From contig JBDUXZ010000037.1 in NCBI GenBank assembly GCA_039944855.1, forward strand, positions 62,001 to 126,000: DNA of 64,000 nt, given 5' to 3'. The notes under the pieces were generated by a model. That model had not been told where the DNA came from, did not search any database, and worked only from the letters and a program-made list of their open reading frames with translations. The position numbers and the translations under genes were made by a program. Of this stretch, positions 5,621 to 57,663 are shown one piece after another (within the stretch, counting starts at the first letter, position 1; each line of letters starts with the position of its first letter). The DNA is from Rhodothermales bacterium. GTDB lineage: Bacteria > Bacteroidota > Rhodothermia > Rhodothermales > JANQRZ01.

Positions 5621-5636
5621 TTAACCACGAGGTTAA
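5621..5636. promoter_or_regulatory. Perfect 16-bp dyad upstream of tetR (operator)
   Basis: TTAACC-ACGA-GGTTAA, with arms fully complementary, sits 34-49 bp before the tetR start. Its half-site recurs at 4913-4928 in front of the tolC-like gene and was not noticed elsewhere in the window. A TetR operator is the natural reading. Confidence 0.6.
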
Positions 5637-5698
5637 ATCATCCTACCAACCCAGAGTTCCCACCTCGGCCCTCTTCTTTCCACGGAGATGCCGACGCC

Positions 5699-6076: not shown

Positions 6077-6148
6077 GATGGGTCGGTACGGATGCGCCCC
6101 GGACGAGCCGGGGCGCGGTGCACGGGGTCCTTCAGCCGAAGGGCATTC

Positions 6149-6673
6149 TCAGATGAAGATGATCTGCGCGCCTTCGCCTTCCGCGAGGGCGTACATGTCG
6201 CCGACCGTGATGACGCCAGCGAGGTCGTCGATGAACTCATCCTCCTCGATCTTGAACATCTCGACGGCGAGCTTGCAGCCGTAGATCTCGCCACCGCCGG
6301 CGACGATCATCTCCATGAACTCGGAGACGGGCGGGATGTCGAGCTTGTCCATCTCCTTCCGCATCATCGCCGAGGCAAGCGCCTCGAACCCGGGGAGCCC
6401 GCCGAGCATCGTCGGCATCTTTTGCATGAAGGCCGGGTTGCCGACGGTCGAGGTGTGGAGGTGGTCTTGCCGGTCTTTGCGGATCGCTTCGAGGCCGAAG
6501 AAGGTGAAGAACATCTTCGCCTCCATCCCCTCCATGAGCGCGCCGTTGGCCATGATGAGGCCGGCATACACGTCTTCGAGCGTGCCCTTCGAGACGATGA
6601 CGAGGACTTTGCGGACGGGGTGCTCGTCCGCCTTCTTAGTGGTGGGGTCGGTGTACGTGGCAGGGGCTTCCAT
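6149..6673 (-). CDS. DsrE2-like (DsrE/DsrF/DrsH superfamily) protein
   Basis: Probable sulfur-carrier protein of 174 residues. After a short polar leader the chain has the superfamily opening KVLVIVSKGTLEDVYAGL, a conserved MFFTFFGLEAI strand, and a GGGEIYGCKLA motif whose Cys133 is the expected persulfide-carrying residue. The C-terminus ends in a beta strand, without the membrane segment some DsrE2 proteins have. It sits between TusE/DsrC-like and GerW-like genes and downstream of an SQR-like gene. A role in receiving zero-valent sulfur from SQR is inferred from known sulfur-trafficking clusters. Confidence 0.82.
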   Translation of the reverse strand: MEAPATYTDPTTKKADEHPVRKVLVIVSKGTLEDVYAGLIMANGALMEGMEAKMFFTFFGLEAIRKDRQDHLHTSTVGNPAFMQKMPTMLGGLPGFEALASAMMRKEMDKLDIPPVSEFMEMIVAGGGEIYGCKLAVEMFKIEEDEFIDDLAGVITVGDMYALAEGEGAQIIFI

Positions 6674-6717
6674 GATGGTACCTCGATGGAGTCAGAGTGG
6701 AAGGGGAGGCAGCGGCG

Positions 6718-7026
6718 TCAGACGCAGCTCGCAGGTTTCGGGATGCCGGCGATCTTGCTCGACACCTTCAGCGGGCCGCCGGGGAAGAGGTCGTAGAACT
6801 CCTTGATCGTGACGAGGCCGGACTTGCCGATGCGGCGGATCGTCAGCGGCGTGCCCTCGGCGTAGCGATCCCGGAGGTAGTGGAGGACTTCGAAGTGCTT
6901 GTCGGTGAGTTCGAAGCCCTGCGCCTGGGCGATCTGGTGCGCGAGCTCCGGCGTCCACTGCCCGGGGTCGGTGAGGTAGCCTTCGTCGTTGACGTCGACG
7001 GTCGTAATGCCAATGGTCTGTTGCAT
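6718..7026 (-). CDS. TusE/DsrC/DsvC-family sulfur carrier, single cysteine
   Basis: 102-residue sulfur-transfer protein. It has the family's WTPELA, TDKHFEVLHYLRDRY and GLVTIKEFYDLFPGGP blocks and the C-terminal arm IPKPASCV. The penultimate Cys101 is present. The second arm cysteine of true DsrC, eleven residues upstream, is Ser90 here, so the protein resembles TusE or regulatory DsrC-like paralogs and cannot form the DsrC trisulfide. No DsrAB genes are visible. It is 37 bp downstream of the SQR-like gene. Confidence 0.88.
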   Translation of the reverse strand: MQQTIGITTVDVNDEGYLTDPGQWTPELAHQIAQAQGFELTDKHFEVLHYLRDRYAEGTPLTIRRIGKSGLVTIKEFYDLFPGGPLKVSSKIAGIPKPASCV

Positions 7027-7063
7027 GGGTCCGGGGGTTGATCGGTGGTCGGGACGGTGGGGG

Positions 7064-8329
7064 TCAGGCGGGCTCGGCTTCGGGCTCCGGCGTGCCGGCG
7101 TCTTTGCCGAGCATCGACATGTGGGACGAGACGGGGAGCGGCTTGCCGGTGAGGAGGAGGTGCCAGTAGACCCACTCGAAGGCGAGCTTGCCCATGTGGT
7201 TGGCGCGGGTCTCTTTGAGCAGGCTCATCGGGCCGAGGAGCGGGAGCGGGAATTTGCCCGGCAGCGGCTCCGTGTCGTAGTTGAAGTCGATGAGCGTAGC
7301 CTTGCCGTGGCCGGTCTCGATGAAGCAGTTGGCGTGGCCGTCGAACGCGGCATCGAGCGGCTCACCGTGGATGTAGTGGAGGACGTTCTCGGTCAGGATC
7401 TCGGCCTCGAAGTGCGCCACCGAGCCGGCCTTCGACGTCGGAAGGTTCGTCGCGTCGCCGATGACGAAGACGTTCTCGTAGTCCCGCGCCTGCAGCGTGT
7501 GCTTGTCGGTCGGGACGTAGTTGAGGTCGTCGGCGTCGCCCATGTCGCTGGCCTCGACGAGGTCGGCGCCCATGTTCACGGGGACGGCGACGAGGAGGTC
7601 GAAGGGCACCTCGCGCTCGTCGTACGAGACGAGGACTTTGCGCTCTTCATCGACGCGCTCGACGTAGAAGTCCGGGACGACGGTGATCCCCTTCTCCGCC
7701 ATCAGCCCGCTGAGGAATTCCGTCGCCTTCGGCTTCGTGAACGCGCCGGAGAGCGGGGTGACGTAGCTGATCTCGACGCGGTCACGCATCCCGCGCTCCT
7801 CGAAGAACGAGTCGGCGAGGAAGGCGAACTCGAGCGGGGCGATGGGGCACTTGAAGATGCTCTCGGCGAGGAAGATCACGAGCCGCCCGCCCTCCCACGT
7901 CGCGAGCCGGTCGCGGAGCGCGCACGCGCCCTCGAAGGTGTAGAAGTCGAAGGCGTCGCGGTACCACAGCTCGCCGTCGAGGCCGGGCGTCTCTTCGGGC
8001 CGCGGCGTCGTGCCGGTGGCGACGATGAGGAGATCGTAGCCCAGCGCTCGCCCGTCCGTCAGCCGCACCGTGTTCGCCTCCGGCTCGATCTCTTCGACTT
8101 CGGCGACGACGAACGTGACGCCGTCGGGGATGAAGTCGCGCTTCGGGCGGACGAGCCGCTCGGCGTCGTAGATCTGGAAGGGGACGAAGAGGAAGCCGGG
8201 CTGGTAGTAGTGGTCTTCGTCTTTGTCGACGACGGTGATGGCCCACGCGTCGGCGTCGAGCGCCTTGAAGAGCTTGTTGGCCATCATGGTGCCGGCCGTG
8301 CCGGCGCCGAGGATGAGGAGGTTTTTCAT
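7064..8329 (-). CDS. Sulfide:quinone oxidoreductase-like flavoprotein
   Basis: FAD-dependent oxidoreductase of 421 residues that probably oxidises sulfide to polysulfide and passes electrons to quinone at the membrane surface. The start is set at the ATG that begins MKNLLILGAGTAG, giving the N-terminal FAD GxGxxG fold; the longer open frame upstream is untranslated leader. A KCPIAPLEF motif carries Cys161 and a NCFIETG motif carries Cys335, two redox cysteines of SQR/FCSD proteins. The third, near residue 128, is absent (nearest is Cys136). A second FAD motif (VFVIGDATNLP) is present. It heads the operon SQR, TusE-like, DsrE2-like, GerW-like. Confidence 0.85.
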   Translation of the reverse strand: MKNLLILGAGTAGTMMANKLFKALDADAWAITVVDKDEDHYYQPGFLFVPFQIYDAERLVRPKRDFIPDGVTFVVAEVEEIEPEANTVRLTDGRALGYDLLIVATGTTPRPEETPGLDGELWYRDAFDFYTFEGACALRDRLATWEGGRLVIFLAESIFKCPIAPLEFAFLADSFFEERGMRDRVEISYVTPLSGAFTKPKATEFLSGLMAEKGITVVPDFYVERVDEERKVLVSYDEREVPFDLLVAVPVNMGADLVEASDMGDADDLNYVPTDKHTLQARDYENVFVIGDATNLPTSKAGSVAHFEAEILTENVLHYIHGEPLDAAFDGHANCFIETGHGKATLIDFNYDTEPLPGKFPLPLLGPMSLLKETRANHMGKLAFEWVYWHLLLTGKPLPVSSHMSMLGKDAGTPEPEAEPA

Positions 8330-8514
8330 GGCTCGTAGATGTTTTGGCTGCGGTCGTTTCAGGGTACGAAGCCGACGGCCTCGCGGCCGTCCGGCCAAAA
8401 CCCCCCGATTGTGCCATCCCGTCACCCAATAGCTTGTAGGCAAGGACCCCACAACTGTCCAGTTGCATACTGGAGCTAGCTAATGAACAAGGCAGACGCG
8501 ATCAAAAGCCGCAA

Positions 8515-8544
8515 CGGCACCCCGACCGGACCGCCGAGGTGCCG
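8515..8544 (-). terminator. Hairpin terminator after the FadL-like gene
   Basis: CGGCACC and GGTGCCG arms (7 bp) are separated by 16 nt, just downstream of the minus-strand FadL-like gene. On that strand they are followed after a few bases by a short TTTT tract. A modest rho-independent terminator. Confidence 0.45.
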
Positions 8545-8558
8545 CTGGGCAGTGGGGA

Positions 8559-9872
8559 CTAGAACCGGTAGCTCACGCCCACCACGGCCGTCAGCGTCGA
8601 GAGCTCGCTCGTGACCGTCGTGCCGGGCACGCTCGACTGCCCGGTCATCGGGATCATCATCGGGCTCTGCATCGCCGAGGTCACCTCGTTGCGCGGGGCG
8701 TACTGCACGGCGGCCGAGGCCATCACGCGCGCGTTGACGAGGTACGAGAACCCCGCGCTGAGGTGGTGCTGCACGATCGCCGGCGCGGCCACGTTGAAGA
8801 AGGCCACGTCGTCGCGGATCGGGTTCTCGTTGTAGGCGTAGCCGAGGCGGACGGGCAGCCGGTCGGTGACGTCGTATTCGAGCCCGACGGCGGCGACCCA
8901 GATGCTCTCCCAGCCGAAGCCGGTGACGGCGCCGGTTTCGTCGAACGCGGCGGCCTGGAAGCCGTCTGTGTTCGCGAAGTCGAGGTAGCGGACGTCGGCC
9001 ACGAGCGTCAGCCGGTCGATCCCGCTGTAGGCGGCGGCGACCGACGCGATCAGCGGGTAGTCGAGGTTGTAGCTGAACGTGCGGTCGGCGTACGCGAAGT
9101 CGAAGTCCTGGAAGAACTGCGGGGTCTTGACCGAGATGCCGGCGGTGAGTCCCGCGTCCGTGGCGTAGTGGAACCCCAGCTGCGCGCCGAAGCCGAGCGC
9201 CGTGGCGCGCGGGCCGTCGGGATAGCCGTTCTGGTCCGGGTTCGTCGCCGGGAACGGAGCGACCTCCAGCATCCCGACGTTGAGCGTCGGGGCGAGCCCG
9301 AAGGAGAGCCGGTCGTTGAAGGCGAACGCGTACGTCGGCGCGACCTGGAAGAGCGAGAACGATGAGCGCAGCGCGCCGAAGCCGCCCGCCTCCTGCGGGA
9401 ACGTGATCGGGTTCCCGTCAGCCGTGGTCGGATCGGACGCCGCGTAGTTCACGCCGAACCCGCCGACGCCGAGCGCGCTGATCCCGAACGTGGACCGGCC
9501 GTGGGCCGGGCGGTAGACGAAACCGACCGCCGGGATCGGGAACGGGCCGGTGTCGCTCGCCGTCGTGCCGCTCAGCCGGACCGGCGGCGCGTCGGGCCCC
9601 ATCGCCCCCGTCTCGATCGTCGAGGCGAGGTCGGTCGTCGGAAACATGAGTTGGAGGCTGACGTCGAGCTGCGTCGCGTCGAGCGTGGCGATGGCGGCGG
9701 GGTTCCAGTGCAGCGCCGCGAGCCCATCGCGGGGCGCGGCCATGCCGGCCCCGGACCAGCTCTGATCGATGGGGCCGACCCCGTTGAGGACGTGGCCCGT
9801 CTGCGCCACGGCGACGGGGAGCACCCCGAGGCTGAGGACGAGCAGGCCGAGGGTGAGGTGCATGTGTCGCAT
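8559..9872 (-). CDS. OmpP1/FadL/TodX-family outer-membrane transporter
   Basis: Outer-membrane beta-barrel for hydrophobic substrates such as long-chain fatty acids or aromatic compounds, 437 residues. A signal peptide ends near VAVAQ. The mature N-terminus has the family hatch features (AGMAAPRDGLAALHWNPAA, like the NPA motif of FadL). Alternating amphipathic strands follow, ending in VGVSYRF, with the terminal Phe expected of outer-membrane proteins. The ATG at 9863 is an alternative start. A dyad centred on GGTAC lies 54-68 bp upstream. It appears to be a single-gene unit. Confidence 0.88.
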   Translation of the reverse strand: MRHMHLTLGLLVLSLGVLPVAVAQTGHVLNGVGPIDQSWSGAGMAAPRDGLAALHWNPAAIATLDATQLDVSLQLMFPTTDLASTIETGAMGPDAPPVRLSGTTASDTGPFPIPAVGFVYRPAHGRSTFGISALGVGGFGVNYAASDPTTADGNPITFPQEAGGFGALRSSFSLFQVAPTYAFAFNDRLSFGLAPTLNVGMLEVAPFPATNPDQNGYPDGPRATALGFGAQLGFHYATDAGLTAGISVKTPQFFQDFDFAYADRTFSYNLDYPLIASVAAAYSGIDRLTLVADVRYLDFANTDGFQAAAFDETGAVTGFGWESIWVAAVGLEYDVTDRLPVRLGYAYNENPIRDDVAFFNVAAPAIVQHHLSAGFSYLVNARVMASAAVQYAPRNEVTSAMQSPMMIPMTGQSSVPGTTVTSELSTLTAVVGVSYRF

Positions 9873-9925
9873 GACGTTCCTCCAAAAGAAAAGTGCGGTG
9901 CCGTGGGTGCAAGACGGGAGACCCC

Positions 9926-9940
9926 GACTCGGTACAAGTC
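9926..9940. promoter_or_regulatory. GGTAC-centred dyad upstream of fadL-like gene
   Basis: GACT-CGGTACA-AGTC, an inverted repeat. It differs by one base deletion from the ACTCGGTACCAAGT dyad found at a similar distance before a usp gene (44125-44138). Candidate shared regulator site; function inferred from recurrence only. Confidence 0.35.
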
Positions 9941-10070
9941 AGCTTAGCACGCGCTACGGCAGCATGTCGTAGTCGGCAGGGCCTCCCCCGTGCCGTCCGA
10001 AGTCGACCCGTGGAGTAGGCCCGTTGCTTAGGGCCGAGCCCTCCCCTCGCCCCCGGCTGACGGCCGTCTA

Positions 10071-10099
10071 GGCCCCGTCCCCATCCCCCGATCGGGGCC
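10071..10099 (-). terminator. GC-rich hairpin downstream of usp gene
   Basis: GGCCCCG and CGGGGCC arms around a C-rich loop, about 35 bp past the stop of the minus-strand usp gene. There is no T-run, so it may be a weak terminator or only an mRNA-stabilising stem. Confidence 0.35.
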
Positions 10100-10133
10100 T
10101 CCCCCACAGCGCGCCGACCTCATCGCACCGGCC

Positions 10134-11057
10134 TCACGCCTCGTCCCGGTCGGGCCGTTCGAGGTGGCGCATGGAGAGCACGGGGCACGGGGCGGAGCGG
10201 ATCGTCCGCTCGGTCACGCTCCCGACGAGGGCGTGCTCCAGCCCCGTCAGCCCGTGCGTCGCCATCACGACGAGGCCGGCCCCGCGCTCCTCGGCCAGTT
10301 CGATGATCTCGCGGTGGGGACGGCCGACGCAAATGTGGAACGCGGCGGCCGGGTCGCCTCCGACCTCCGCGTCGAACGCGCGGAGGTGTCGCTCGGCGCG
10401 CTCGATGAACGTCGCTTCGGCGACGCCCGGCGACACACCGAACGCCTCGGGATAAAAGACCGGGTACGGCCCCGTCTCTTCGACGACGTGCACGAGCTCG
10501 ACGGGCGCCTCGAACAGCGCGGCCGTCCGCTTCGCCGCGCCGACCGCGTTCCGGTTGGACGCGGCGAAGTCGACCGGCACGAGCACGGGCGCGTCCGGGC
10601 CGGGTGCCGTCCGCACCGCCGCGTTCGGGACCGTCAGCACGGGGCACGGCGCGAGGCGGACGACCTCTTCGGCCACGCTCCCCGCGAGGAGGTGGCGCAC
10701 GCCGCGCCGCCCGTGCGTGCCGACCACGACGAGGTCGGCCCCGACCTCCCGCACGTAGTCGAGCAGCACCTCGGCTGCGACCTCGCCGCGCCGGACGACG
10801 ACCTCCGGCCCGATCACGTCGAGCGCTTCGTCGCCGCCGAGCGCGGCCTCGGCGAAGGCGCGGGTACGAGCTTCCAGCACGTCGGTCGGCTCCTCCGGCT
10901 GCGGGAGGCTCCCGAGGTCAAGGTTGAAGATGGACGCGGCGTGGACGAGGTGGAGGCGGGCGTGGAGCCGCTCGGCGAGGTCGGCAGCGCGGACGAGCGC
11001 GGCCTCGGACCCCTCGGAGAAGTCGAGGCCGGCAACGACGGTACGAACGTCAGTCAT
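10134..11057 (-). CDS. Universal stress protein, tandem UspA domains
   Basis: 307-residue cytoplasmic protein with two UspA folds in tandem. Each domain opens with a hydrophobic strand followed by DFSEGS- or DFAASN-like turns and closes with the ATP-binding glycine pattern G-2x-G-9x-G-S (GTHGRRG...AGS and ATHGLTG...VGS), so both halves should bind ATP. The start is the ATG giving MTDVRTVVAGLDFSEG; the longer frame upstream is spurious. It lies 20 bp after the small secreted protein gene. It is one of seven tandem Usp proteins in the window. Confidence 0.9.
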   Translation of the reverse strand: MTDVRTVVAGLDFSEGSEAALVRAADLAERLHARLHLVHAASIFNLDLGSLPQPEEPTDVLEARTRAFAEAALGGDEALDVIGPEVVVRRGEVAAEVLLDYVREVGADLVVVGTHGRRGVRHLLAGSVAEEVVRLAPCPVLTVPNAAVRTAPGPDAPVLVPVDFAASNRNAVGAAKRTAALFEAPVELVHVVEETGPYPVFYPEAFGVSPGVAEATFIERAERHLRAFDAEVGGDPAAAFHICVGRPHREIIELAEERGAGLVVMATHGLTGLEHALVGSVTERTIRSAPCPVLSMRHLERPDRDEA

Positions 11058-22330: not shown

Positions 22331-22549
22331 GGAATCGGAGGGGCGAAGAGAGAGGCGAGGCCGGGGTGTGGAAGGGCGAGCGCGAACGCGGGTTCCATCA
22401 CCGTGGCCCGATTATGAGGAGCTACGGCGAGGAGTAGGGGATTGCGGCCGCGCGCCGTAGCATGGGACGGAACCCACGCGCACGGTGGAGGTGTGGACCT
22501 TCTCCTCGCCGCGCCTGCCCCTCCCCCTCCCCCTTCGCCCGCCCTTCTC

Positions 22550-25500
22550 GTGTCCGAGCCCGTAGAAAACCCGTTCGACCTCGAAGCCCTGGCGGCCTAC
22601 GCCCGCCGCATGGCCCGGACGCAGGCCGTCGTCGTCGAGCCGCGCCGGCTTACACGGCCTCCGCTCTTCCTCCTCCGCGAGGCGTACCGCGGCCTGCCCG
22701 AGGCGTACCGCGCCCTCAGCCGGGCCGCCAAGAAGCGGCAGTCGCTCACGCCCGCCGCCCACTGGCTCCTCGACAACTTCCACCTCATCCGCGAGCAGGC
22801 CAACCAGGTGCGGGAGGGGCTTCCGTGGTCGTACTACCGCGTCCTGCCCCGGCTCGAAAGCGGGCCCGACCGGGGGCGGCCCCGCGTGTTCGAAGTCGTG
22901 CGCGCCCTCGCCCAGCACACCGACAACGCGCTCGGCGACCGGCAACTCGCCCCGTTCATCTGGGCCTACCAGGAGGTCTCCCCCTTCCTCCTCTCCGAGC
23001 TGTGGGCGCTCCCCTCCGCGCTCCGCCTCGTCCTCCTCCAGAACCTCAGCGCCCTCGCGCAACAGGTCGTCACGGACCTCGAAGATCGGGCGGCGGCGGC
23101 GACGTGGGCCCGCCGGATCGCCGAGCACACCGAGGGCGACTCCGCCGATGTCGTGACGGTCCTCGCGGGGCTCGCCGAGCGGCACGCCCCGCTCTCCGAC
23201 GCCTTCATCGTCACGCTCTCGACGGCGCTGCAGGGGCAGGGCGCCGCCGCCGCCCCCGCCCTCGACTGGATCGAGCGGCGGCTCCACGCGCGCGGGAGCA
23301 CGCTCGACACCGTCATCCACCGCGAGACCCAACGCCAGAGCCATCGGCAGTTCAGCGTCGCGAACGCCGTGACCTCGCTCCGTGAGGTGGACCGGACCGA
23401 CTGGCCCGACCTCGTCGAGTCGCTGTCGGTCGTGGACAAGGCGCTCCGGCGCGACCCGGCGGGCGTGTACGAGGCGATGGACTTCCTCACGCGCGACCGC
23501 TACCGCCACCGCGTCGAGGACCTCTCCCGCTACGCCGGCACGCCGGAGTTGGGCGTCGCCGAGCGGGCGCTCCTCCTCGCCGCCGACGCCGCTCACGCGA
23601 CGGCATCGGAGGCTGCGACACCGACGACGGCCGAGCCCGTCGGGCACGTCGGCTATTGGCTCGCGGGGCCGGGCGCGGCCGAGCTGGAGACGGAGATGCG
23701 CTACCGGCCGCCGCTCGGGCAGCGGCTCCGGCGGTGGGCGCGCGCCCATCCCAACATCACGTACTTCGGCCTCGTGACGGGTTGGGCGGCCGTGCTCTAC
23801 GCCGTCCTCGTCCTCCTGCTCGACATGATGACGGCGCCGCCGCTCGGCCTCGTCGTCCTCGCCTTCGCCGTCTCGTTCCTCCCCGTGCTCGACCTCTCGG
23901 TCGCGCTCACGAACTGGCTGCTCACGCGCGTGATGCCGCCGGACATCCTCCCGAAGCTGGCCTTCGAGGAGGGGCTGCCCGACGCGTCGCGGACGTTCGT
24001 CGTCGTGCCCACCCTCATCGACTCGCCGGAGAGCGCGCAGCGGCAGGCGGAGCGGCTCGAAGTCCACGCCCTCGCCAACCCCGACCCGAACCTCCGCTTC
24101 GGCCTCCTCACCGACTTCCCCGACGCGCCCGCGCAGCACGCACCGGGCGACGCCGCCACGCTCGCCGCCGCGCGCGAGACGGTCGCCGCGCTCAACCGGC
24201 GGTACCGCGACGACGCGGGCGACAAGTTCTTCCTCCTCCACCGCGAGCGCCGCTGGAACGCCGTCGAGGGCGTGTGGATGGGCTGGGAGCGGAAGCGCGG
24301 CAAGCTCGAAGAGTTCATCCGCCTCCTCCGCGAGCCCGACGCGAGCACGACGTACACCGAGATCGAGGGCGACTTCCGCGCCGTCGCCGCGGGCGATGCG
24401 TTCCGCTACGTCCTCACCCTCGACGCCGACACGGAGCTGCCGCCGGAGGGCGCGGCGGCCCTCGTTCGCACGGCGGCCCACCCGCTCAACCGCCCGCGCT
24501 ACAACGCGACCCGCACGCGCGTCGAGCACGGCTACGGCGTCTTCCAGCCCCGCATCGGGATCGGGTCAGAGGCGGGGCACCGGACGGGCTTCGCCCGCGT
24601 CTTCGCCGGGTTCGCCGGGATCGACCCGTACACGACGGCCGTCAGCGACGTCTACCAGGACCTCTTCGGCGAGGGGATCTTCACCGGGAAAGGGCTGCTC
24701 GACATCGATGCCTTCCGCACGGTGCTCGAAGGCGTGTTGCCCGAAAACAAGATCCTCTCGCACGACCTCCTCGAAGGGCTCCACGCCCGCGCCGCCCTCG
24801 TCACCGACGTCGTGCTCTTCGACGACTACCCGTCGCACTACGCGGCGTTCGCGAAGCGGCTGCACCGCTGGGTCCGCGGCGACTGGCAGATCCTGCCGTG
24901 GCTGTTCCCCGCCGTCCCCGGCCCGGACGGGCGCTGGCGCCGCAACCCGGCCCGGCTGCGCGGGCGGTGGAAGGTGTTCGACAACCTCCGCCGCTCGCTC
25001 ACGCCGCCGTCCGTGCTCGTCTTCCTCCTCCTCGGGTGGACCGTCCTCCCCGGCTCGCCCTTCGTGTGGACGGCGCTCGCGCTCGGCGTCCTCGCCTTCC
25101 CGATCTACGCCCCGTTCACGAGCGCGCTCCTCGCCCACCCCCGCGACGTCGTCTGGCGAAGCTACCTCCAGGGCGCCCTCACCGACGCCCGGCGGTCGAC
25201 GGTGCAGGTGGGGCTCTCCGTCGTCTTCCTCGCGCACGAGGCGTACGTGATGACGGACGCGATCGTGCGGACGCTGTGGCGGATGTTCGTCAGCCGGCGC
25301 CGCCTGCTCGAATGGGTGACGGCGCAGCAGGCCGAGCAGCGGAGCGGCCGGGCGCCGGGCCTCTGGTTCTCCGTCCTCTGGGGCGGCCTCGTCCTCATCG
25401 TGCTCAGCTTTGTCAACCCCCTCGCGTGGGTCGTCGCGCTCCCGTTCGTCGCGGCGTGGGTGGCGGCGCCGTGGGTGGCCGACGCCATCAGCCGGCCGGT

Positions 25501-28500
25501 GAAGGAGACGGCGTATGTGCTCAGCGACGCCGAGCGTGCGCGGCTCCGCCTCGTCGCGCGGCGGACGTGGCGCTACTTCGACGCCTTCGTCGGGCCCGCC
25601 GACCGCTGGCTCGCCCCCGACAACTTCCAGGAGCAGCCCTTCCGCGGCGTCGCCCGCCGGACCTCGCCGACGAACCTCGGCCTCGCCCTCCTCGCCGCCC
25701 AAGCCGCCCACGACTTCGGGTACCTCTCGCGCAGCGCCCTCCTCGACCGCCTCGCCCACCAGCTCAGTGCGATCGACGAGCTGGAGCGGCACGCGGGGCA
25801 CCTCTACAACTGGTACAGCACCGAGACCGGCGCCCCGCTCCACCCTCGCTACGTCTCATCGGTGGACTCGGGCAACCTCGCCGCCGCGCTCGTCGCCCTC
25901 CGCGAAGGACTTCGCGAGACGCCCGACGCGGCGTGGCCGTCGCCCGGCCTCGCCGACGCCCTCGCCGACGCCCTCGCCGCGCTCGACGAGGTCATCGCAC
26001 GGCCCCGCGCCGACGTGACGGGCGAGAGCACGCGGCTCGTCGTCGCCGCCGCCCGCTCGCTCCGCGGCTCGCTCCCCGCTGCCTTCAGCGCCGACCTCCC
26101 GACGCGCTACGAGCAGCTCCTCGCGCTCGACCACGACGCCGAGGTCCTCCGCGACGCCGCGACCGACCTCGCGATTCGCTCCTCCGCCGACCGCGAGGAG
26201 TTCCTCTACTGGGCGAGCCAACCGTTCCTCCGCCTCCGCGCCGAGCGCGAGGAGCTGGAGCGGTTCGCCCCATGGCTCATGCTCGACGCCGATGCGCCCC
26301 CCGACCGCTTCGCCGCGCCGGGCTCGCTCGGTGGCCTCCGCGCGCACACGCAGGCGGCCCTCCGCCACAACGGGCAGCCCGGCCCGCTCCACGACGCGCT
26401 CGTCGCCGCCGACGAAGCCCTCACGTTCGCGCTCGACCGCGCCGAGCAGCTCGCCATCGACGCCGAGCGGCTCGCTCTCGGGATGGACTTCGGCATGCTC
26501 TACCGCAAAGGCGTCGGCCTCTTCGCGATCGGCTACGACGTCGACCGCGCCGCGCTCGACGCCCACGACTACGGGCTCCTCGCGAGCGAGGCCCGCCTCG
26601 CTTCCCTCCTCGCGATTGCGAAGGGCGACGTGCCCGTCGAGCACTGGTTCCGCATGGGGCGGCCCACCGCCGCACCCGACGGGCACAAAGTGCTCCTCTC
26701 GTGGAGCGGGACGATGTTCGAGTACCTCATGCCGGTGCTGCTCACGCGGCTCTTCCCCGGCTCGCTCCTCGAAGAGAGCGCCCGCAACGCCGTCGCCGTG
26801 CAACGGGCGTACGGGCAGCGGCACGGCCACCCGTGGGGGATCTCCGAGAGCGCCTATTTCAAGCTCGATCCCGAACTGACGTACCAGTACCGCGCCTTCG
26901 GTGTGCCCGGCCTCGGCCTCGACCGCGGCCTCCACAAGCACTACGTCGCGGCGCCCTACGCCACGCTCCTCGCCCTCCCGATCGCGCCCGAAGCCGCGCT
27001 CGCCAACCTCACCGCGCTCGCCGAGCTCGGCGCGTACGGGCCGTACGGCTACTACGAGGCCGTGGACTTCACGCCCCACCGCGTGCCGCCGGGGAAGGAC
27101 CGCGCCGTCGTCCGCGCGTACATGGTCCACCACCAGGGCATGGGCCTCCTCGCCCTCGCCAACACCGTTCTCGGCGACGCGATGCAGCACCGGTTCCACG
27201 CCTCGCCGCTCGTCCGCTCCGTCGAGGTGCTGCTGCAGGAGCGCGTGCCGCGCGAGATCGAGAAGATCGCCGTGGCGGAGGAGATGGAGGAAATCGAACC
27301 CATCGACGCCCGGCCCGTCCGCCCCGCCGTCCGCCACGTCCCGGCCGAGCGGCTCCGCGACGAGGTGGCCCACGGCGCGCTCCTCTCGAACGGCGACTAC
27401 TCCACCTTCGTCACCGCCGCCGGCTCGGGCTACAGCCGCCACGGCGGCGACGCCGTCACGCGCTGGACGCCCGACCGCACGCGCGAGCACGACGGCCTCT
27501 TCCTCTACGTCCGCGACGCCGACTCGGGCCGGACGTGGAGCGCCGCCGCGCAGCCCATCGCCGGCACGCCCGACCGCTACGAGGCGTGGCTCCACACCAA
27601 CAAGGTCGAGATCGCCCGCGTCGACGACTGGATCGAGACGTTCAGCGAGGTCTGCGTCTCGCCCGAGGACGACGTCGAGCTCCGCCGCTACACCCTCACC
27701 AACTACGGCGACCGGCCGCGCCGGCTGGAGTTGACGAGCTACGCCGAGGTCGCCCTCAACGACGCCGACGCCGACCACGCCCACCCCGCCTTCTCCAAGC
27801 TCTTCGTGCAGACGGAGTACGTCCCGACGCACCATGCCCTCCTCGCGTGGCGCCGCCCGCGCAGCGACGAGGAGCCCCACCGCTGGCTCTTCCACACGAT
27901 CGCCGACGACGAGCTCGACGCGGCGACGGGGCCGCTTCAGATCGAGACCGACCGCGCCCGCTTCCTCGGCCGGGGCCGCTCCACGGCCGACCCCGCCGCG
28001 CTCGACCCTGGCGCCTCGCTCTCCGGCTCGCTCGGCCCCGTGCTCGACCCGATCGTCAGCCTCCGCCGCGTCGTCGAGGTCCCGCCGAAGGGGAAGGTGA
28101 CCGTGACGTTCGCCCTCGGCGTGGCCGACAGCCGCGCCGAAGCCCTCCGCCTCGCCGACCGCTACGACCACCCCGAAGCGGCCCGGCGCGCGTTCGACCT
28201 CGCGACGGTCTACGGCCTCGTCGAGCTCCAGCACCTCGGCTTGCAGGGGAACGACGCGCTCTATGCGCAGGGCCTCGCCTCGGCCCTCCTCTACGCCCCG
28301 CCGTCGCTCCGCGCCGACACCGCCACGGTCGCCGCGAACCGGCGGAGCCAGCCCGGCCTCTGGGCCTACGGCATCTCCGGCGACCTCCCGCTCATCGTGC
28401 TCCGCGTCTCGAAGACCGAGCACATGGAGACGGTCCGCCGCTTCCTCCAGGCCCACGCCTACCTCCGCGCGAAAGGCCTCCACGCCGACCTCCTCGTCCT

Positions 28501-31249
28501 CAACGAGCACCCGCCGTCGTACGCCGACGAATTGCAGAAGGCGATCCTCGACGCCGTGCAGGCTTCGCCGGGCCGGAACCTCCTCAACGAGCGCGGCGGC
28601 CTCTTCGTGCGCCGCGCCGACGGGCTGCCCGAGGAGGACCTCACGCTCATCCTCGCCGTCGCCCGCGTGGTCGTGGACGGGACGGCGCCGGAGCTCGCGC
28701 TCGACGGACCGCCGCCCGTGCCGCCGCCGCCCATCCGCGCCCGGCCTGCTGCGCCTGACGATCTCGCGGACGAGGACTCGGTGCCTGATGACCGCGCGCC
28801 GCTCCAGTTCTTCAACGGCTACGGCGGCTTCACCGAGGACGGGAGCGAGTACGTGATCCGCCTCGGCGGCGAGGGCGAGCCCGCCATCACCCCGCTCCCG
28901 TGGACGAACGTCGTCGCCAACCCCGACGTCGGGTTCACGGCGACGGAGAGCGGGACGGGCGCGACGTGGGCCGGCAACAGCCAGATGAACAAGCTGACGC
29001 CGTGGAGCAACGACCCCATCGCCGACCCCGCCGAGGAAACGCTCTACCTCCGCGACGAGGACGCCGGCATCTACTGGTCGCCGACGCCGCGCCCGGTGCC
29101 GGCCCCCGGCGGCTACGAGGTCCGACACGGCTGGGGCTATTCCACGTACCGCCACGCCAGCCGCGAGCTAGAGCAGGAGACGACGCTCTTTGTCCCGCTC
29201 GACGCCCCCGTGAAGCTCGTCCGCCTCCGCGTCACGAACCGGAGCGCGGAGCCGCGCCGGCTCTCGGCGTTCCGCTACCACGCGTGGGTCCTCGCCGATC
29301 AGCGCCGGAAAGGCGCGCTCCACACCGTCGTCGAGGGCAGCGAGGACGACACCGTGCTCTTCGCCACGAACCGGTTCAACGCGCCCTTCGCCGACCGCGT
29401 CGCGTTCTCCGCCGTCATCGCCCCCGGCGCGGCCGGCATCACGGCGACGGCGGACCGGACGGCGTTCCTCGGGCGCGGCGGCAGCCCGGAGCGGCCGTTC
29501 GCGCTGGAGCGGACCGAGGCGCTCGACGGCCACGCCGGGGCCGGGCTCGACCCATGCGCGGCGTTCCAGGTCCCGCTCGACCTCGCGCCGGGCGAGACGG
29601 CCGCGGTGCTGTTCCTCCTCGGCCAGACCGGCAGCCGCGACGAGGCCGAGTCGCTCCTCGCCCGTTTCCGCGACGGCGACGCGGCCGAGGCCGCCCTCGC
29701 CGAGGTCCGCGACTTCTGGCGCGAGACGCTCACCGCCGTCCAGATCGAAACGCCGGTGCCCGCGCTCGACGTGCTCGCGAACGGGTGGCTCCTCTACCAG
29801 AACCTCGCGTGCCGGCTGTGGGGCCGGACGGCGTTCTACCAGAGCGGCGGCGCATTCGGCTTCCGCGATCAGATCCAGGACTCGGCCGCGCTCGTCTACA
29901 CCCGGCCCGACATCACGCGGGCGCAGATCCTCCTCCACGCCGCGCACCAGTTCGTAGAGGGCGACGTGCTCCACTGGTGGCACCCCGAGACGCAGGCCGG
30001 CATCCGCACGCGGTTCTCCGACGACCTCCTGTGGCTGCCATACATCACCGCGTCGTACGTCCGCACGACGGGCGACACCGCCGTGCTCGACGAGGAGATC
30101 CGCTTCCTCACGGCGCGGGCGCTGGAAGAGGGCGAGGACGAGGTCTACCTCACCCCGACGCCCGCCGGCTCCGGCTCGCTCTACGAGCACGGTTGCCGCG
30201 CCCTCGATATCTCGCTCACGAAGGGGCCGCACGGCCTCCCGCTCATGGGCAGCGGCGACTGGAACGACGGGATGAACCGCGTCGGCAACGACGGGCGCGG
30301 CGAGAGCGTGTGGCTCGGGTTCTTCCTCCGCCACATCCTCCGCCTCTGGATCCCCCTCAGCGAAGCGCGGGGCGACGACGAGCGCGTCGCCGCCTACCGC
30401 GCCTACGACGCCCACCTCGCCGACGCCCTCAACGACACCGGGTGGGACGGCGACTGGTACCGCCGCGCCTACTACGACGACGGCGCCCCGCTCGGCTCGT
30501 CGGAGAGCGACGAGTGCCGGATCGACGCGATCGCGCAGGGCTGGGCCGTGATGTCCGGGACGGCCTCGCCGCAGCGCGCCGAGCGCGCCCTCGCCTCGGC
30601 CGAAGCGCACCTCGTCGACCGCGACGCGGGGATCGTCAAGCTCCTCGCCCCGCCCTTCGACACGACGCCGCACGACCCCGGCTACATCAAGGGCTACGTG
30701 CCCGGCGTGCGCGAGAACGGCGGGCAGTACACGCATGGCATCCTCTGGCTCCTCCGCGCCCTCGCTGAGACCGGCCGCGGTGACACCGCCGCCGACCTCC
30801 TGGAGATGATCTCGCCCGTCACGCGGACGGCCACGCCGGAGCGCGTCGCCGTGTATCAGACCGAGCCCTACGCCGTCGCCGCCGACGTGTACGGCGTCGA
30901 GCCGCACACCGGCCGGGGCGGGTGGACGTGGTATACCGGCTCGGCCGGGTGGTTCTACCGCGTGATCGTCGAGAGCCTCCTCGGCTTCCGCATCGAGGGC
31001 GGCGACACGCTCGTGCTGACGCCGCGCATCCCGGCCTCGTGGCCCGGCTTCACCTTCCGCTACCGCCACGGCGACGCCGTCTACACCCTCACCGTCGCGC
31101 CCACCGACGACGACACCCTCCACGGCGACGTGGACGGCGAGGCGCTGACTTCCGACGGCGAAACCGTCCGCCTCCCCCTCCGCGCCGACGGCCATGCTCA
31201 CGCTGTCGCGCTCCACGTCCCGCGCACCATGCAGCCCGCCGACTCCTGA
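22550..31249 (+). CDS. ndvB: Cyclic beta-1,2-glucan synthase (NdvB/ChvB type)
   Basis: Giant inner-membrane enzyme of about 2,900 residues that makes beta-1,2-glucan. Order: an N-terminal domain (HWLLDNFHLIREQ); membrane helices near residues 400-450; a GT84 glycosyltransferase core with a DxD-like LDADTELP (about 623) and HRWVRGDWQ (about 773); further helices; a glycoamylase-like domain (about 1300-1500, FEYLMPVLLTRLFPG); and two GH94-type phosphorylase modules, the last with the catalytic GDWNDGMN (about 2568). This matches the rhizobial and Brucella enzymes, in which the GH94 part trims chain length. Candidate starts are GTG 22550 (used) and TTG 22442; the first internal Met is later. The product may be osmoregulatory glucan. 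Confidence 0.93.
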   Translation: MSEPVENPFDLEALAAYARRMARTQAVVVEPRRLTRPPLFLLREAYRGLPEAYRALSRAAKKRQSLTPAAHWLLDNFHLIREQANQVREGLPWSYYRVLPRLESGPDRGRPRVFEVVRALAQHTDNALGDRQLAPFIWAYQEVSPFLLSELWALPSALRLVLLQNLSALAQQVVTDLEDRAAAATWARRIAEHTEGDSADVVTVLAGLAERHAPLSDAFIVTLSTALQGQGAAAAPALDWIERRLHARGSTLDTVIHRETQRQSHRQFSVANAVTSLREVDRTDWPDLVESLSVVDKALRRDPAGVYEAMDFLTRDRYRHRVEDLSRYAGTPELGVAERALLLAADAAHATASEAATPTTAEPVGHVGYWLAGPGAAELETEMRYRPPLGQRLRRWARAHPNITYFGLVTGWAAVLYAVLVLLLDMMTAPPLGLVVLAFAVSFLPVLDLSVALTNWLLTRVMPPDILPKLAFEEGLPDASRTFVVVPTLIDSPESAQRQAERLEVHALANPDPNLRFGLLTDFPDAPAQHAPGDAATLAAARETVAALNRRYRDDAGDKFFLLHRERRWNAVEGVWMGWERKRGKLEEFIRLLREPDASTTYTEIEGDFRAVAAGDAFRYVLTLDADTELPPEGAAALVRTAAHPLNRPRYNATRTRVEHGYGVFQPRIGIGSEAGHRTGFARVFAGFAGIDPYTTAVSDVYQDLFGEGIFTGKGLLDIDAFRTVLEGVLPENKILSHDLLEGLHARAALVTDVVLFDDYPSHYAAFAKRLHRWVRGDWQILPWLFPAVPGPDGRWRRNPARLRGRWKVFDNLRRSLTPPSVLVFLLLGWTVLPGSPFVWTALALGVLAFPIYAPFTSALLAHPRDVVWRSYLQGALTDARRSTVQVGLSVVFLAHEAYVMTDAIVRTLWRMFVSRRRLLEWVTAQQAEQRSGRAPGLWFSVLWGGLVLIVLSFVNPLAWVVALPFVAAWVAAPWVADAISRPVKETAYVLSDAERARLRLVARRTWRYFDAFVGPADRWLAPDNFQEQPFRGVARRTSPTNLGLALLAAQAAHDFGYLSRSALLDRLAHQLSAIDELERHAGHLYNWYSTETGAPLHPRYVSSVDSGNLAAALVALREGLRETPDAAWPSPGLADALADALAALDEVIARPRADVTGESTRLVVAAARSLRGSLPAAFSADLPTRYEQLLALDHDAEVLRDAATDLAIRSSADREEFLYWASQPFLRLRAEREELERFAPWLMLDADAPPDRFAAPGSLGGLRAHTQAALRHNGQPGPLHDALVAADEALTFALDRAEQLAIDAERLALGMDFGMLYRKGVGLFAIGYDVDRAALDAHDYGLLASEARLASLLAIAKGDVPVEHWFRMGRPTAAPDGHKVLLSWSGTMFEYLMPVLLTRLFPGSLLEESARNAVAVQRAYGQRHGHPWGISESAYFKLDPELTYQYRAFGVPGLGLDRGLHKHYVAAPYATLLALPIAPEAALANLTALAELGAYGPYGYYEAVDFTPHRVPPGKDRAVVRAYMVHHQGMGLLALANTVLGDAMQHRFHASPLVRSVEVLLQERVPREIEKIAVAEEMEEIEPIDARPVRPAVRHVPAERLRDEVAHGALLSNGDYSTFVTAAGSGYSRHGGDAVTRWTPDRTREHDGLFLYVRDADSGRTWSAAAQPIAGTPDRYEAWLHTNKVEIARVDDWIETFSEVCVSPEDDVELRRYTLTNYGDRPRRLELTSYAEVALNDADADHAHPAFSKLFVQTEYVPTHHALLAWRRPRSDEEPHRWLFHTIADDELDAATGPLQIETDRARFLGRGRSTADPAALDPGASLSGSLGPVLDPIVSLRRVVEVPPKGKVTVTFALGVADSRAEALRLADRYDHPEAARRAFDLATVYGLVELQHLGLQGNDALYAQGLASALLYAPPSLRADTATVAANRRSQPGLWAYGISGDLPLIVLRVSKTEHMETVRRFLQAHAYLRAKGLHADLLVLNEHPPSYADELQKAILDAVQASPGRNLLNERGGLFVRRADGLPEEDLTLILAVARVVVDGTAPELALDGPPPVPPPPIRARPAAPDDLADEDSVPDDRAPLQFFNGYGGFTEDGSEYVIRLGGEGEPAITPLPWTNVVANPDVGFTATESGTGATWAGNSQMNKLTPWSNDPIADPAEETLYLRDEDAGIYWSPTPRPVPAPGGYEVRHGWGYSTYRHASRELEQETTLFVPLDAPVKLVRLRVTNRSAEPRRLSAFRYHAWVLADQRRKGALHTVVEGSEDDTVLFATNRFNAPFADRVAFSAVIAPGAAGITATADRTAFLGRGGSPERPFALERTEALDGHAGAGLDPCAAFQVPLDLAPGETAAVLFLLGQTGSRDEAESLLARFRDGDAAEAALAEVRDFWRETLTAVQIETPVPALDVLANGWLLYQNLACRLWGRTAFYQSGGAFGFRDQIQDSAALVYTRPDITRAQILLHAAHQFVEGDVLHWWHPETQAGIRTRFSDDLLWLPYITASYVRTTGDTAVLDEEIRFLTARALEEGEDEVYLTPTPAGSGSLYEHGCRALDISLTKGPHGLPLMGSGDWNDGMNRVGNDGRGESVWLGFFLRHILRLWIPLSEARGDDERVAAYRAYDAHLADALNDTGWDGDWYRRAYYDDGAPLGSSESDECRIDAIAQGWAVMSGTASPQRAERALASAEAHLVDRDAGIVKLLAPPFDTTPHDPGYIKGYVPGVRENGGQYTHGILWLLRALAETGRGDTAADLLEMISPVTRTATPERVAVYQTEPYAVAADVYGVEPHTGRGGWTWYTGSAGWFYRVIVESLLGFRIEGGDTLVLTPRIPASWPGFTFRYRHGDAVYTLTVAPTDDDTLHGDVDGEALTSDGETVRLPLRADGHAHAVALHVPRTMQPADS

Positions 31250-31412
31250 GAGACGTACCGCCTGTGACCGGCCCGAAGAGCACAGGCGATGCGCACGAGT
31301 GCAGTCGTGTCGTTATGACGATGGCGTCCGTATGTTGACAGCCCCGCGCCGGGACTGCTCGTAGTTAGAGCGGCCTTGGCGTGGCCAATCACAGACGCTT
31401 ACCGCCCCTCCA

Positions 31413-31491
31413 CCGTAACCCCAGACTGCACGTTACGCCGACGGCGTCCGCGTTAAAACGCCGACAGCGTCGGCCTAATCAGGGGTTATGC
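31413..31491 (+). repeat. attC-like folded site preceding the 31.5-kb cassette
   Basis: A 79-bp imperfect palindrome. Outer arms are TAACCCCAGA and TCAGGGGTTA, with inner GCCGACGGCG and AGCGTCGGC arms. It ends in GTTATGC (31485-31491). The first 10 bases from that GTT box are the exact reverse complement of the bases at 32170-32179 past the next gene, as expected for the two ends of an integron cassette. It is shorter than, and different in sequence from, the other attC-like sites here, so it could be an attI-like or secondary target. The rest of 31250-31518 holds no gene. Confidence 0.55.
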
Positions 31492-31518
31492 TGCTGTTGA
31501 AATGAACGGTCACAAACC

Positions 31519-32178
31519 ATGTTTATAGGACACCTCGCGGTGGCACTTGGTGCTAAGTCGATTGATCGCCAGGTACCTTTGCCGTTGCTGATTGGGGCTT
31601 CATTTGGTATCGATTTGCTGTGGCCGATTTTTATCCTGATTGGTATTGAGACTGTAGAGATAGATCCGGGTAACACAGCGTTCACCCCCCTGTATTTCGT
31701 TTCATATCCGTGGAGTCACAGCCTGTTGACTGTATTGGGATGGAGCTTGCTGCTTGGATTGATCGCAAGGGGCATGGGACTGTCCTCCAAAAGCGCAATA
31801 CTCGTAGGCGGATTGGTAACGAGTCATTGGGTTCTGGACTGGCTTACTCATCGTCCAGATCTTCCTTTGTGGCCTGGTGGCAAAGTGACTGGCTTGGGGC
31901 TTTGGAATTCTATTCCCGCTACAATGATAGTAGAGGGATCAATGCTGGTTCTTGGAGCAATACTTTTCTTTAGGACAGTTAAGCCAAATGGGTGGAAGGG
32001 GTGGATTGCAATTTCCTCTTTATTACTGCTCGTTGTAGCGATTTGGGCTAGCCAGCCGTTCTCGCCACCACCGCCAAGTTCGGAAGCGATTGCGATTGTT
32101 GGGTTGACCACATTCCTGCTTCCGTTGTGGGGACTATGGATCGAAAAGCAGTCGACAGAGCTTTCTCACGCAGCATAA
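31519..32178 (+). CDS. YdjM-like membrane metal-dependent hydrolase (cassette gene)
   Basis: 219-residue polytopic protein with markedly lower GC than its surroundings. It has five to six hydrophobic helices. His5 sits in MFIGHLAVALGAK, and YPWSHSLL and SHWVLDWLTHRPDLPLWP supply further His/Asp residues, a pattern like the membrane-bound YdjM/metal-dependent hydrolase group. The stop codon TAA lies inside the GCATAAC box of the downstream attC-like site, and the gene starts 28 bp after the upstream GTTATGC box. It is therefore a single-gene cassette in layout. Biochemical activity is unknown. Confidence 0.75.
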   Translation: MFIGHLAVALGAKSIDRQVPLPLLIGASFGIDLLWPIFILIGIETVEIDPGNTAFTPLYFVSYPWSHSLLTVLGWSLLLGLIARGMGLSSKSAILVGGLVTSHWVLDWLTHRPDLPLWPGGKVTGLGLWNSIPATMIVEGSMLVLGAILFFRTVKPNGWKGWIAISSLLLLVVAIWASQPFSPPPPSSEAIAIVGLTTFLLPLWGLWIEKQSTELSHAA

Positions 32179-32293
32179 CAAGCGCCTCCGCCTGACCGCA
32201 CGAAGACCGACTTACCTCGTTTCATCTAACTATATTCATCGCCTCGTGCCATTGCTGTGCCGCCTGCGGCAGGTGAGGCGCAGCCCGTTCTGC
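32173..32293 (+). repeat. attC-like recombination site A (121 bp)
   Basis: Starts GCATAAC (overlapping the gene's stop) and ends GTTCTGC. The arms fold: GCGCCTC, CCTG and CCGCA near the start pair with TGCGG, CAGG and GAGGCGC near the end. A CTTACC block at 32211 lies 76 nt before the GTT box, the same spacing (76-78 nt) as in the sites at 58.3, 61.4 and 62.4 kb. Its left end complements the start of the preceding cassette 10/10. These are the features of a VCR-like attC. Confidence 0.7.
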
Positions 32294-32319
32294 CGCTTTG
32301 CAATCGATCAGCTAGAGCG

Positions 32320-32700
32320 ATGCCCATCCTGCGGAAACTGCTGTGGGTGGACTGCACGGCCGGCGCCGTCGTCGGGGTGACGGTGATCGGGCTCAGCGGG
32401 TGGCTCAGCCGCCTGGAGGGGCTGCCGCAGGACGTCCTGCTCTTCACCGGCGTGATGAACCTGCTCTACGCCTCGTACTCGTTCTCGCTCGCCGTCCGGT
32501 CCGAGCGGCCGATGCGCCTCGTCAAGCTGCTGGTGTTCGCGAACCTGGCGTGGGTCCCGGTGTGCCTCGGGCTGGCGGCGGCCTTCGCCGAGTCCGCGAC
32601 GCCGTTCGGGTTCGTTCACCTCGTCGGCGAGGCGTTCTTCGTCGGCGGGCTGGCCGTTCTGGAGTGGCGCCATCGGGACCTGCTCCTCACAGCGGCCTGA
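32320..32700 (+). CDS. Four-helix integral membrane protein, unknown
   Basis: 126-residue protein with four hydrophobic helices: LLWVDCTAGAVVGVTVIGL, DVLLFTGVMNLLYASYSFSLA, LVKLLVFANLAWVPVCLGLAAA and FVHLVGEAFFVGGLAVL. Charged loops lie between them and it ends WRHRDLLLTAA. It resembles small uncharacterised membrane proteins of Bacteroidota. GC is high like the core. It starts 27 bp after the GTT box of attC-like site A, so it is either the first core gene after an inserted cassette or a second, GC-adapted cassette. The ATG at 32320 is preferred over a GTG at 32257, which would lie within the attC-like site. Confidence 0.6.
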   Translation: MPILRKLLWVDCTAGAVVGVTVIGLSGWLSRLEGLPQDVLLFTGVMNLLYASYSFSLAVRSERPMRLVKLLVFANLAWVPVCLGLAAAFAESATPFGFVHLVGEAFFVGGLAVLEWRHRDLLLTAA

Positions 32701-32742: not shown

Positions 32743-33147
32743 CTACCTCGGCTCCGCGTTGGTCTCCAGCCACTCCGCGAGCAGGACCTCGTCTACGGTC
32801 CCACCAGCCAGGCCTTCCATCACCGTAACCGTCTCCACTTCCTCCGGCTGGAGGTGGTACCCGTTCCGAAACAGGAACGCTCGGACGGCTAGCAGGGCGG
32901 CGCGCTTATTCCCGTCCACGAAGGCGTGGTTCTTGGCGATCCCGAACCCATACGCAGCGGCCAGATCGAAAAGCGTAGCCCCCTCCTCATACGCACGGAG
33001 ATGTCGGGGCCGAGCGAGGGCGCTCTGGAGCAGCCCCTCGTCGCGTACGCCCTGTGCCCCTCCGAACAGCCGGATCGATTCCGCGTGGAGCATCTTCAGC
33101 TGAATCGCCGTGAGCCAGATGGGGTCGCTCCCGGCCGGCTCGCTCAC
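32743..33147 (-). CDS. Doc/Fic-type toxin (death-on-curing)
   Basis: 134-residue toxin of a type II toxin-antitoxin pair. The Fic core is HAFVDGNKR, matching the Doc form HxFx(D/N)xNKR. Doc proteins use this site to phosphorylate elongation factor Tu and stop translation. The N-terminus (IWLTAIQLKMLHAESIRLFGG, then VRDEGLLQSALARP) is also Doc-typical. Translation starts at a GTG that overlaps the antitoxin stop in a GTGA. Activity is expected because all motif residues are present. Confidence 0.9.
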   Translation of the reverse strand: MSEPAGSDPIWLTAIQLKMLHAESIRLFGGAQGVRDEGLLQSALARPRHLRAYEEGATLFDLAAAYGFGIAKNHAFVDGNKRAALLAVRAFLFRNGYHLQPEEVETVTVMEGLAGGTVDEVLLAEWLETNAEPR

Positions 33148-33371
33148 TTGGCCAGTTCGCGGAACGCGTTCCGGTGGGAGCGCATGAACGCACGCGCGTC
33201 CTCCATCGCTGCCGCGAAGTCGGGGTCGTAGGGCGTCGCGCTGATCCCGTCCGGCGTGGCCGTCACGAAGAGCTCGTCGCCCTCTTGGAGTGCCATCGTG
33301 TCCGCGACGGGCTTCGGTATGATGAACCCAAGCGAGCCCCCGAACCGGCGGACCTTCGTCGTCTCAGGCAT
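33144..33371 (-). CDS. AbrB/MazE-type antitoxin paired with Doc
   Basis: 75-residue antitoxin. The N-terminal swapped-hairpin DNA-binding domain reads TKVRRFGGSLGFIIPKPVADTM then LQEGDELFV. The C-terminal tail (ATPYDPDFAAAMEDARAFMRSHR) would wrap the toxin, like Phd-type tails. The ATG at 33371 is chosen because it gives the canonical domain; the longer upstream frame is leader. A perfect 16-bp palindrome 50 bp upstream (33421-33436) is the likely operator for autoregulation. The gene overlaps the toxin gene by 4 nt. Confidence 0.88.
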   Translation of the reverse strand: MPETTKVRRFGGSLGFIIPKPVADTMALQEGDELFVTATPDGISATPYDPDFAAAMEDARAFMRSHRNAFRELAK

Positions 33372-33420
33372 GGCCTTCCCTCTGTGGTTGATCGTGGGCT
33401 GTGGTTTCGGTCTCTGCTCA

Positions 33421-33436
33421 TTGAACTTAAGTTCAA
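33421..33436. promoter_or_regulatory. Perfect 16-bp palindrome, toxin-antitoxin operator
   Basis: TTGAACTT-AAGTTCAA, fully symmetric and AT-rich in a GC-rich setting, 50-65 bp before the antitoxin start. AbrB-like antitoxins autoregulate through such sites. The rest of the 210-bp gap (33372-33581) holds no gene. Confidence 0.55.
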
Positions 33437-33581
33437 CAGGCCATGCGTACAACGGCCCCGGAGCATTTCTTGTTGCTTTTCTCTTGTCGAGCCGGGTGCC
33501 TACAGAACCCGCGCGGCGCATGCGACAAACACGCTCCAGCGACGTGGAAGACGCCGTGAGCAGCTTCGCGGGATCGCAGGA

Positions 33582-56952: not shown

Positions 56953-57240
56953 CGTGACAGTCCGAAATTTGCGCGCTCACGAAAATCGTCGCCAGAATGC
57001 GATCAAAACGGCCAATGTAAACTAATTAGGCACTATTGAAGGAATGCACCCAGTTGTCTTCACACAATCCCAACGACCATAAAGAGAAGAATCATAGATA
57101 GACGACGAGAGAACCACCTACAAGACTCCAGACGATCAAGATAGATACAACAATAATAGAAGATACAACTAGAAGTAAGATATAACTAGATAGACTCCCT
57201 AGATAGAAGACTACAAGAGATCCAGAAAGACCACTACAAC
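56953..57240 (+). repeat. A/G-rich leader-like element, copy 1
   Basis: Starts with CGTGACAGTC (56953), carries CTTCACACAA...CCCAACGACCATAAAGAGAAG from 57058, then runs into about 150 bp of T-poor A/G-rich sequence full of AGATAG and AGATACAAC motifs and stop codons. The same two blocks recur at 63740 and 63844, with 105 and 104 bp between them respectively, in the same orientation. No frame is open. It could be a promoter plus unstructured RNA leader or a recombination sequence. Confidence 0.6.
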
Positions 57241-57458: not shown

Positions 57459-57508
57459 ACGCCAACACATCCATTGACATGACCTGTTGCCGCTTCCTTC
57501 CCATACAC

Positions 57509-57615
57509 GACGTGCTGCCATTCTAAGACGTGACGTGCTGCCACTTCCTTCCCATACATGACTTGACGCCATTCAAAGAGAGACGTGCTACCATCCACAT
57601 AGACGTGCTGCCATT
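57509..57615. repeat. Dispersed GACGTGCTGCCAT repeats
   Basis: Several copies of GACGTGCTGCCA or GACGTGCTACCA, with an intervening CTTCCTTCCCATACA block that also occurs just upstream. Different from the arrays on either side. Any function is unknown. Confidence 0.55.
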
Positions 57616-57663
57616 TCCGACGTGGCCTGAACCTGAATGTGTCCTCTGCCATTGCTAAGCCTT

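Follow-up and report, generated by a model that had tools for sequence, protein, structure and literature searches.

Integrons typically have one attI site, which adjoins the integrase, and standard software detects no attI outside class 1 integrons (PMC9024848). attC sites without a neighboring integrase are known as CALIN or single-attC elements, and three origins have been proposed for CALINs, namely off-target insertion, loss of intI, and rearrangement (PMC8618304). Insertion of cassettes at attG sites has been described (Loot et al. 2024, as cited in PMC12444791 and PMC11023631), and in Delta-attI-type cassettes of class 1 and class 2 integrons attI fragments take the place of attC behind the gene (PMC12901181). 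We found no description of attI-headed arrays lacking intI in the open-access literature on multiple, orphan, or duplicated attI sites.

A 64,000-nucleotide stretch of a Rhodothermales draft genome (GenBank assembly GCA_039944855.1, contig JBDUXZ010000037.1, positions 62,001 to 126,000; hereafter the window) carries a locus that resembles each of these systems in part. Like integron gene cassettes in general, it has few extra bases, a stop codon in the R'' box, an attC that folds on the bottom strand, and G/TT junctions; unlike them, it is a lone cassette with no adjoining intI, and its attC is nearer to sites of another genome (G008) than to those of its own. It shares with CALIN and single-attC elements an attC without a neighboring integrase, but an apparent attI with direct repeats and a core stands at its head. 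The order attI then cassette is that of a complete (sedentary chromosomal) integron, whereas here intI does not adjoin, and just one full IntI was found, on a different contig. As with the attG cassettes of Loot et al. (2024), as cited in the two papers above, the cassette lies amid chromosomal genes, but its target appears to be an attI homolog. With Delta-attI-type cassettes it has in common attI sequence away from the usual place; here, though, a long attI lies upstream and the attC is normal. We consider it very likely that the locus is an integrase-less one-cassette integron platform, made up of an orphan attI (31250-31485) and a YdjM-like cassette (31486-32287). The features are as follows (window coordinates; G053 is a related genome).

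22442..31249, + strand: glucan synthase/phosphorylase-like protein, 2935 aa, with GH94 and glycoamylase domains (Pfam)
31250..31485, + strand: orphan attI-like site, no adjoining intI (leader similarity and leave-one-out profile match)
31311..31330, + strand: first copy of attI direct repeat, CGTTATGACGATGGCGTCCG, 85% identical to 31431-31450
31331..31337, + strand: promoter-like element TATGTTG, candidate cassette promoter (from alignment)
31431..31450, + strand: second copy of attI direct repeat, CGTTACGCCGACGGCGTCCG, which aligns with TATGCGGACGGCGTCCGCG of the G053 attI
31474..31487, + strand: attI core CCTAATCAGGGG/TT, predicted crossover after G31485 (core common to other leaders)
31486..32287, + strand: gene cassette, 802 bases (complementary ends, gene, attC)
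31519..32178, + strand: YdjM-like inner-membrane protein, 219 aa (Pfam PF04307, 31.4 bits, cut-off 29)
32170-32296, - strand (bottom strand, the folded, recombinogenic one): attC, 127 nt (covariance model R1, 104 bits)
32287..32296, + strand: right junction G|TTCTGCCGC (identical 10-mer opens cassettes elsewhere in the genome)
32320..32700, + strand: 126-aa protein; homologs occur throughout the order, and in relatives the gene is not carried by a cassette

Gene cassette and attC site

The first-pass annotation had described a low-GC gene bounded by exactly complementary boxes, with the stop codon in the second, and this description held throughout. GTTATGCTGC (31485-31494) and GCAGCATAAC (32170-32179) are exact reverse complements at 10 of 10 positions, and the TAA stop of the YdjM-like ORF (32176-32178) falls inside the second box, which is the R'' box of attC. 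Both cassette junctions are G|TT, at 31485 on the left and 32287 on the right, the positions that had been predicted. The 10/10 complementarity was rejected as stand-alone evidence for a cassette because such pairs occur at chance level: three GTT-started exact 10-mer inverted pairs 200-3000 bases apart were counted in the window, against a shuffle mean of 2.15.

The earlier view of an integron cassette between high-GC core-like genes was upheld, and the cassette has its own attC. A profile built without that site recovered 32170-32296 with 57 bits (E=9e-17). The bottom-strand fold was better than that of shuffled sequences (z=-2.1). Covariance model R1, built from 11 attC sites of the order, includes R- and L-box pairs, and both sides had changed in 12 of its 24 pairs. 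The structure given automatically to a second model, R2, was poor (13 pairs), and our conclusions are based on R1 and the profile tests. R and L boxes are paired in the attC behind the ORF; the pairing of the R boxes is imperfect, R' being derived from the right flank. The annotation had also likened this site to others 26-30 kb away, and lengths are indeed similar, with 127 nt here and 130 nt each at 61410-61539 and 62404-62533. It is chiefly on the attC that we judge the low-GC YdjM-like gene to be a genuine integron gene cassette.

The closest attC relatives lie outside this genome. The site matched attC-containing DNA of G008, a member of another family of the same order (E=2.5e-15). Two sites of G008 are 68-72% identical to it, whereas no other site of its own genome exceeds 55%. 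GC3 is 0.50 in the YdjM-like ORF, compared with 0.96 in the upstream gene and 0.95 in the downstream gene. The closer G008 sites and this difference in GC3 (0.50 against 0.95 in the neighbors) suggest a foreign origin of the cassette. YdjM homologs were considered as cassettes in relatives, and this was not upheld. The YdjM-like protein is 62% identical to the product of a gene in G110, near which there is no attC; a weakly similar protein (34%) of G070 is encoded between two attC sites, a likeness for which we do not claim shared descent. Elsewhere in this genome, G000, a member of the YdjM family and a tyrosine-recombinase match are about 0.9 kb apart (G000:C8:52782-54283).

The right flank could be read as the remnant of a longer array, in which the 126-aa gene (32320-32700) would be a second cassette that has lost its attC. 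At the junction, GTTCTGCCGC has the form typical of cassette starts; the ATG follows 33 bases downstream. The gene itself is chromosome-like, with a GC3 of 0.95; its homologs across the order stand in varied contexts without attC, and a scan with the attC model found none after the gene. On these grounds it was rejected as a second cassette, and a longer array appears improbable. TTCTGCCGC at the right junction would be either the original R box of the attI or the first bases of a previous cassette. Further downstream, a Fic/Doc-family gene and an adjoining MazE-like antitoxin-type gene occupy 32743-33521 on the minus strand.

attI-like leader upstream of the cassette

The 2935-aa upstream protein has strong Pfam matches (GH94 supersandwich, E=7e-146; Glyco_hydro_94, E=3e-116), and the attI-like leader begins immediately after its stop codon and comprises the 235 bases from that codon to the G|TT at 31485. 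In a collection of named genomes, the glucan-synthase query had its best match in a Rubricoccaceae MAG; this family belongs to the Rhodothermales, and on that basis the genome is presumably a member of the order. In a first test of regions upstream of first cassettes, this leader matched C5_323 with z 8.5. C5_323 is an array leader behind a PurF-like gene and itself matches the attI beside the IntI of this genome (z 9.6). Once the cassette start had been taken off, a second comparison matched 31250-31485 to the array leaders C22e (z 9.3), C5_323 (z 8.2), and C22f (z 6.4); for each leader, none of 500 shuffles scored as high. The clearest independent test of leader homology is the match to the intI-adjacent attI of G053 (z 5.7, 0 of 300 shuffles), in which TATGCGGACGGCGTCCGCGTCGTAAC...CCTAATACAGGG and TACGCCGACGGCGTCCGCGTTAAAAC...CCTAATCAGGG align. 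A profile of five other leaders, with the lone one left out, matched 31393-31489 at 13.4 bits; its genome-wide E of 0.2 is weak, and the match is convincing only because its end falls at the predicted place, which had been specified beforehand. Direct comparison with the attI beside the genome's own IntI gave no significant similarity (z 0.2-1.2), so the lone leader is linked to that site through the other leaders and G053, not directly.

Direct-repeat pairs comparable to that at 31311-31330 and 31431-31450 occur in the intI-adjacent attI on C5 and in the C5_323 leader. The same core is present in C22e, C22f, C5_323, C25b, and G053, and homology stops at G/TT. TATGTTG is aligned with TTATCTTG/TTATTTTG of other leaders as a TAnnTTG-like element whose conservation is seen by alignment only, and no sigma-70 promoter match was found in the leader. 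A promoter in this leader probably expresses the YdjM-like gene. When the flanks are joined without the cassette, the product is CCTAATCAGGGG|TTCTGCCGC, in which an R box of the cassette-start type comes directly after an attI core; this would plausibly be an empty attI. A hairpin at 31405-31499, overlapping the attI core region, was considered as a degraded attC and rejected; it folds strongly (z -4.1) but has no attC score.

Judged from these alignments, the left flank is a putative diverged attI rather than a random secondary site. Homology to leaders heading arrays and to the attI beside intI in G053 marks it as an attI, but its neighbor encodes the GH94 protein, not an integrase. Insertion at attI is favored, although no intI adjoins, since the left flank is homologous to attI sites both beside intI and at the head of arrays. 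The annotation's proposal of integration at a secondary site was therefore right about the cassette and not about the site, and it had not anticipated the attI-like left flank. Under that proposal a distant IntI would have inserted the cassette beside a core gene at an attG-type site, a process described for attG by Loot et al. (2024), as cited in PMC12444791 and PMC11023631. The presence of a full IntI elsewhere in the genome and of a single cassette with no neighboring intI fits such an event. An attG target is neither attI nor attC, whereas the target here is attI-like: attI homology of the left flank spans 100-235 bases and ends at the crossover point, and GTTCTGCCGC on the right flank equals an R box of the attI/cassette type. 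An attG site needs neither, and we regard this alternative as very improbable.

Integrase and attI sites in this genome

The assembly is a 4.6-Mb draft of 41 contigs, from which a second intI could be missing. One full IntI was identified, at C5:74605-75585 (TIGR02249, 425 bits, cut-off 265), on a different contig from the cassette. The attC model found 26 sites with E below 0.001 on about 10 contigs of the whole draft, some at contig ends; several cassettes stand singly or in pairs among chromosomal genes, the present one among them. Six strong attI-like sites were detected genome-wide (E<=3e-18), all heading cassettes and one adjoining intI; as these six are the training set of the attI model, the informative part is that no further strong copy lies away from cassettes. 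The model detected no attI at the arrays C9, C40, C5_188, and C33 or at the 58-63 kb cluster. The locus belongs to a set of six or more attI-headed units in the genome. C20, another lone cassette, lies behind a YchF-like GTPase gene, and the full length of its leader matched the attI beside intI in G002 (z 11.9).

The simplest history would be the entry of a foreign cassette by ordinary attC x attI recombination at G/TT, presumably by past action of an IntI. That integrase may have been encoded elsewhere, as is the one full IntI identified, which lies on a different contig; alternatively, an intI beside this attI may have been lost. The distant IntI perhaps still serves the orphan attI in trans.

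The locus could instead be a dead relic, a complete integron that lost intI by deletion and whose attI and cassette are no longer recombined. On anatomy this reading is a sub-case of the integrase-less platform; on function it is a rival. The attI types of this genome find their likeness beside intI in different relatives, that of this locus in G053 and that of C20 in G002, which would be expected had intI been lost from several integrons; such different types within one genome favor this origin. The strong divergence of 31250-31485 from the other leaders and the imperfect R boxes of its attC point the same way. Against it, a search for intI remnants beside the orphan attI sites tested gave nothing convincing, the nearest being a weak SYRTEQTYSG-like stretch near C22e. 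With the evidence from relatives given below, we think a dead relic unlikely, though a serious contender.

Other integron-related sequence was seen in this genome. On C22 (L084, G000:C22:1-16000), two divergent cassette arrays at 747-10416 each have their own attI-like head, and a gene for a tyrosine recombinase (4806-5924) separates the two. In the final cassette of the array next to IntI (L033 6292-7050, G000:C5), the gene is acetyltransferase-like and the attC (L033 6936-7038, 23.7 bits) is degraded. GCTCTGNTGAGAAGCTC followed by TGTCATCC-type sequence is common to the distal ends of two arrays (L033 ~7040; L087, right of attC 6288-6418).

attI copies in related genomes

IntI matches were present in 44 of 114 Rhodothermales genomes and attC matches in 48 of 114. 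A 120-base attI query returned exactly five copies in G013, 96-98% identical, one beside intI and four heading dispersed arrays. These copies lose similarity right after G/TT, and the cassettes behind them differ completely, which suggests recent use in G013 and argues against the relic reading. G012, a single contig with one IntI match, has the attI beside intI and two stray copies, and is less open to doubt over a missing second intI because it is a single contig. Two stray sites were found in G002 and three in G009, the latter by the attI model only. When the dispersed loci of G001 and G009 were compared with an intI-adjacent region, there was no match in that test. The attI cores of G009 (L278/L279) and G012 (L274-L276), which belong to different families, are nearly identical (GGGCGCGTTGTAACACGGCCCA-GGCGGGTTAATAATAGG/TT), and this similarity suggests a possible exchange of integron platforms.

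The locus was compared with relatives, a check that the first-pass annotation had put forward. None of the relatives searched shared the junction, and a syntenic empty site, with both flanks and no cassette, was not found among the relatives searched or in a scan of contigs. The nearest relatives, G001 and G002, have both flanking genes, but apart, in different places.

The near-identical G013 copies and the lack of convincing intI remnants would favor spread of attI alone. An integrase-less platform of this kind may belong to a distributed integron in Rhodothermales, in which one integrase acts in trans on many dispersed attI sites next to ordinary genes, each of them a small slot for the expression of one to a few cassettes; we advance this tentatively, at somewhat less than even chances. 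Here, scattered copies of attI head the arrays, in contrast to the single attI beside an integrase. Should one integrase use scattered attI sites, the first position, from which a cassette is expressed, would exist many times over and not just once. If true, many CALIN and lone-attC calls may be attI-headed platforms that were missed because attI was not searched for. The near-identical attI copies make G013 a genome in which the idea of one integrase and many attI sites is directly testable.

Elsewhere in the window, an integrase-less attC cluster occupies 58271-63300, with attC sites at 61410-61539 and 62404-62533 and a degraded one at 58271-58395. Its genes encode an ion-channel-like protein, a T5orf172/MUG113/DUF2695 protein, and a response regulator. 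The cluster is flanked by a 50-base direct repeat (92%) with copies 6.8 kb apart (57057-57106 and 63843-63892), near which 53-base and 51-base tandem repeats lie at 57476-57939.
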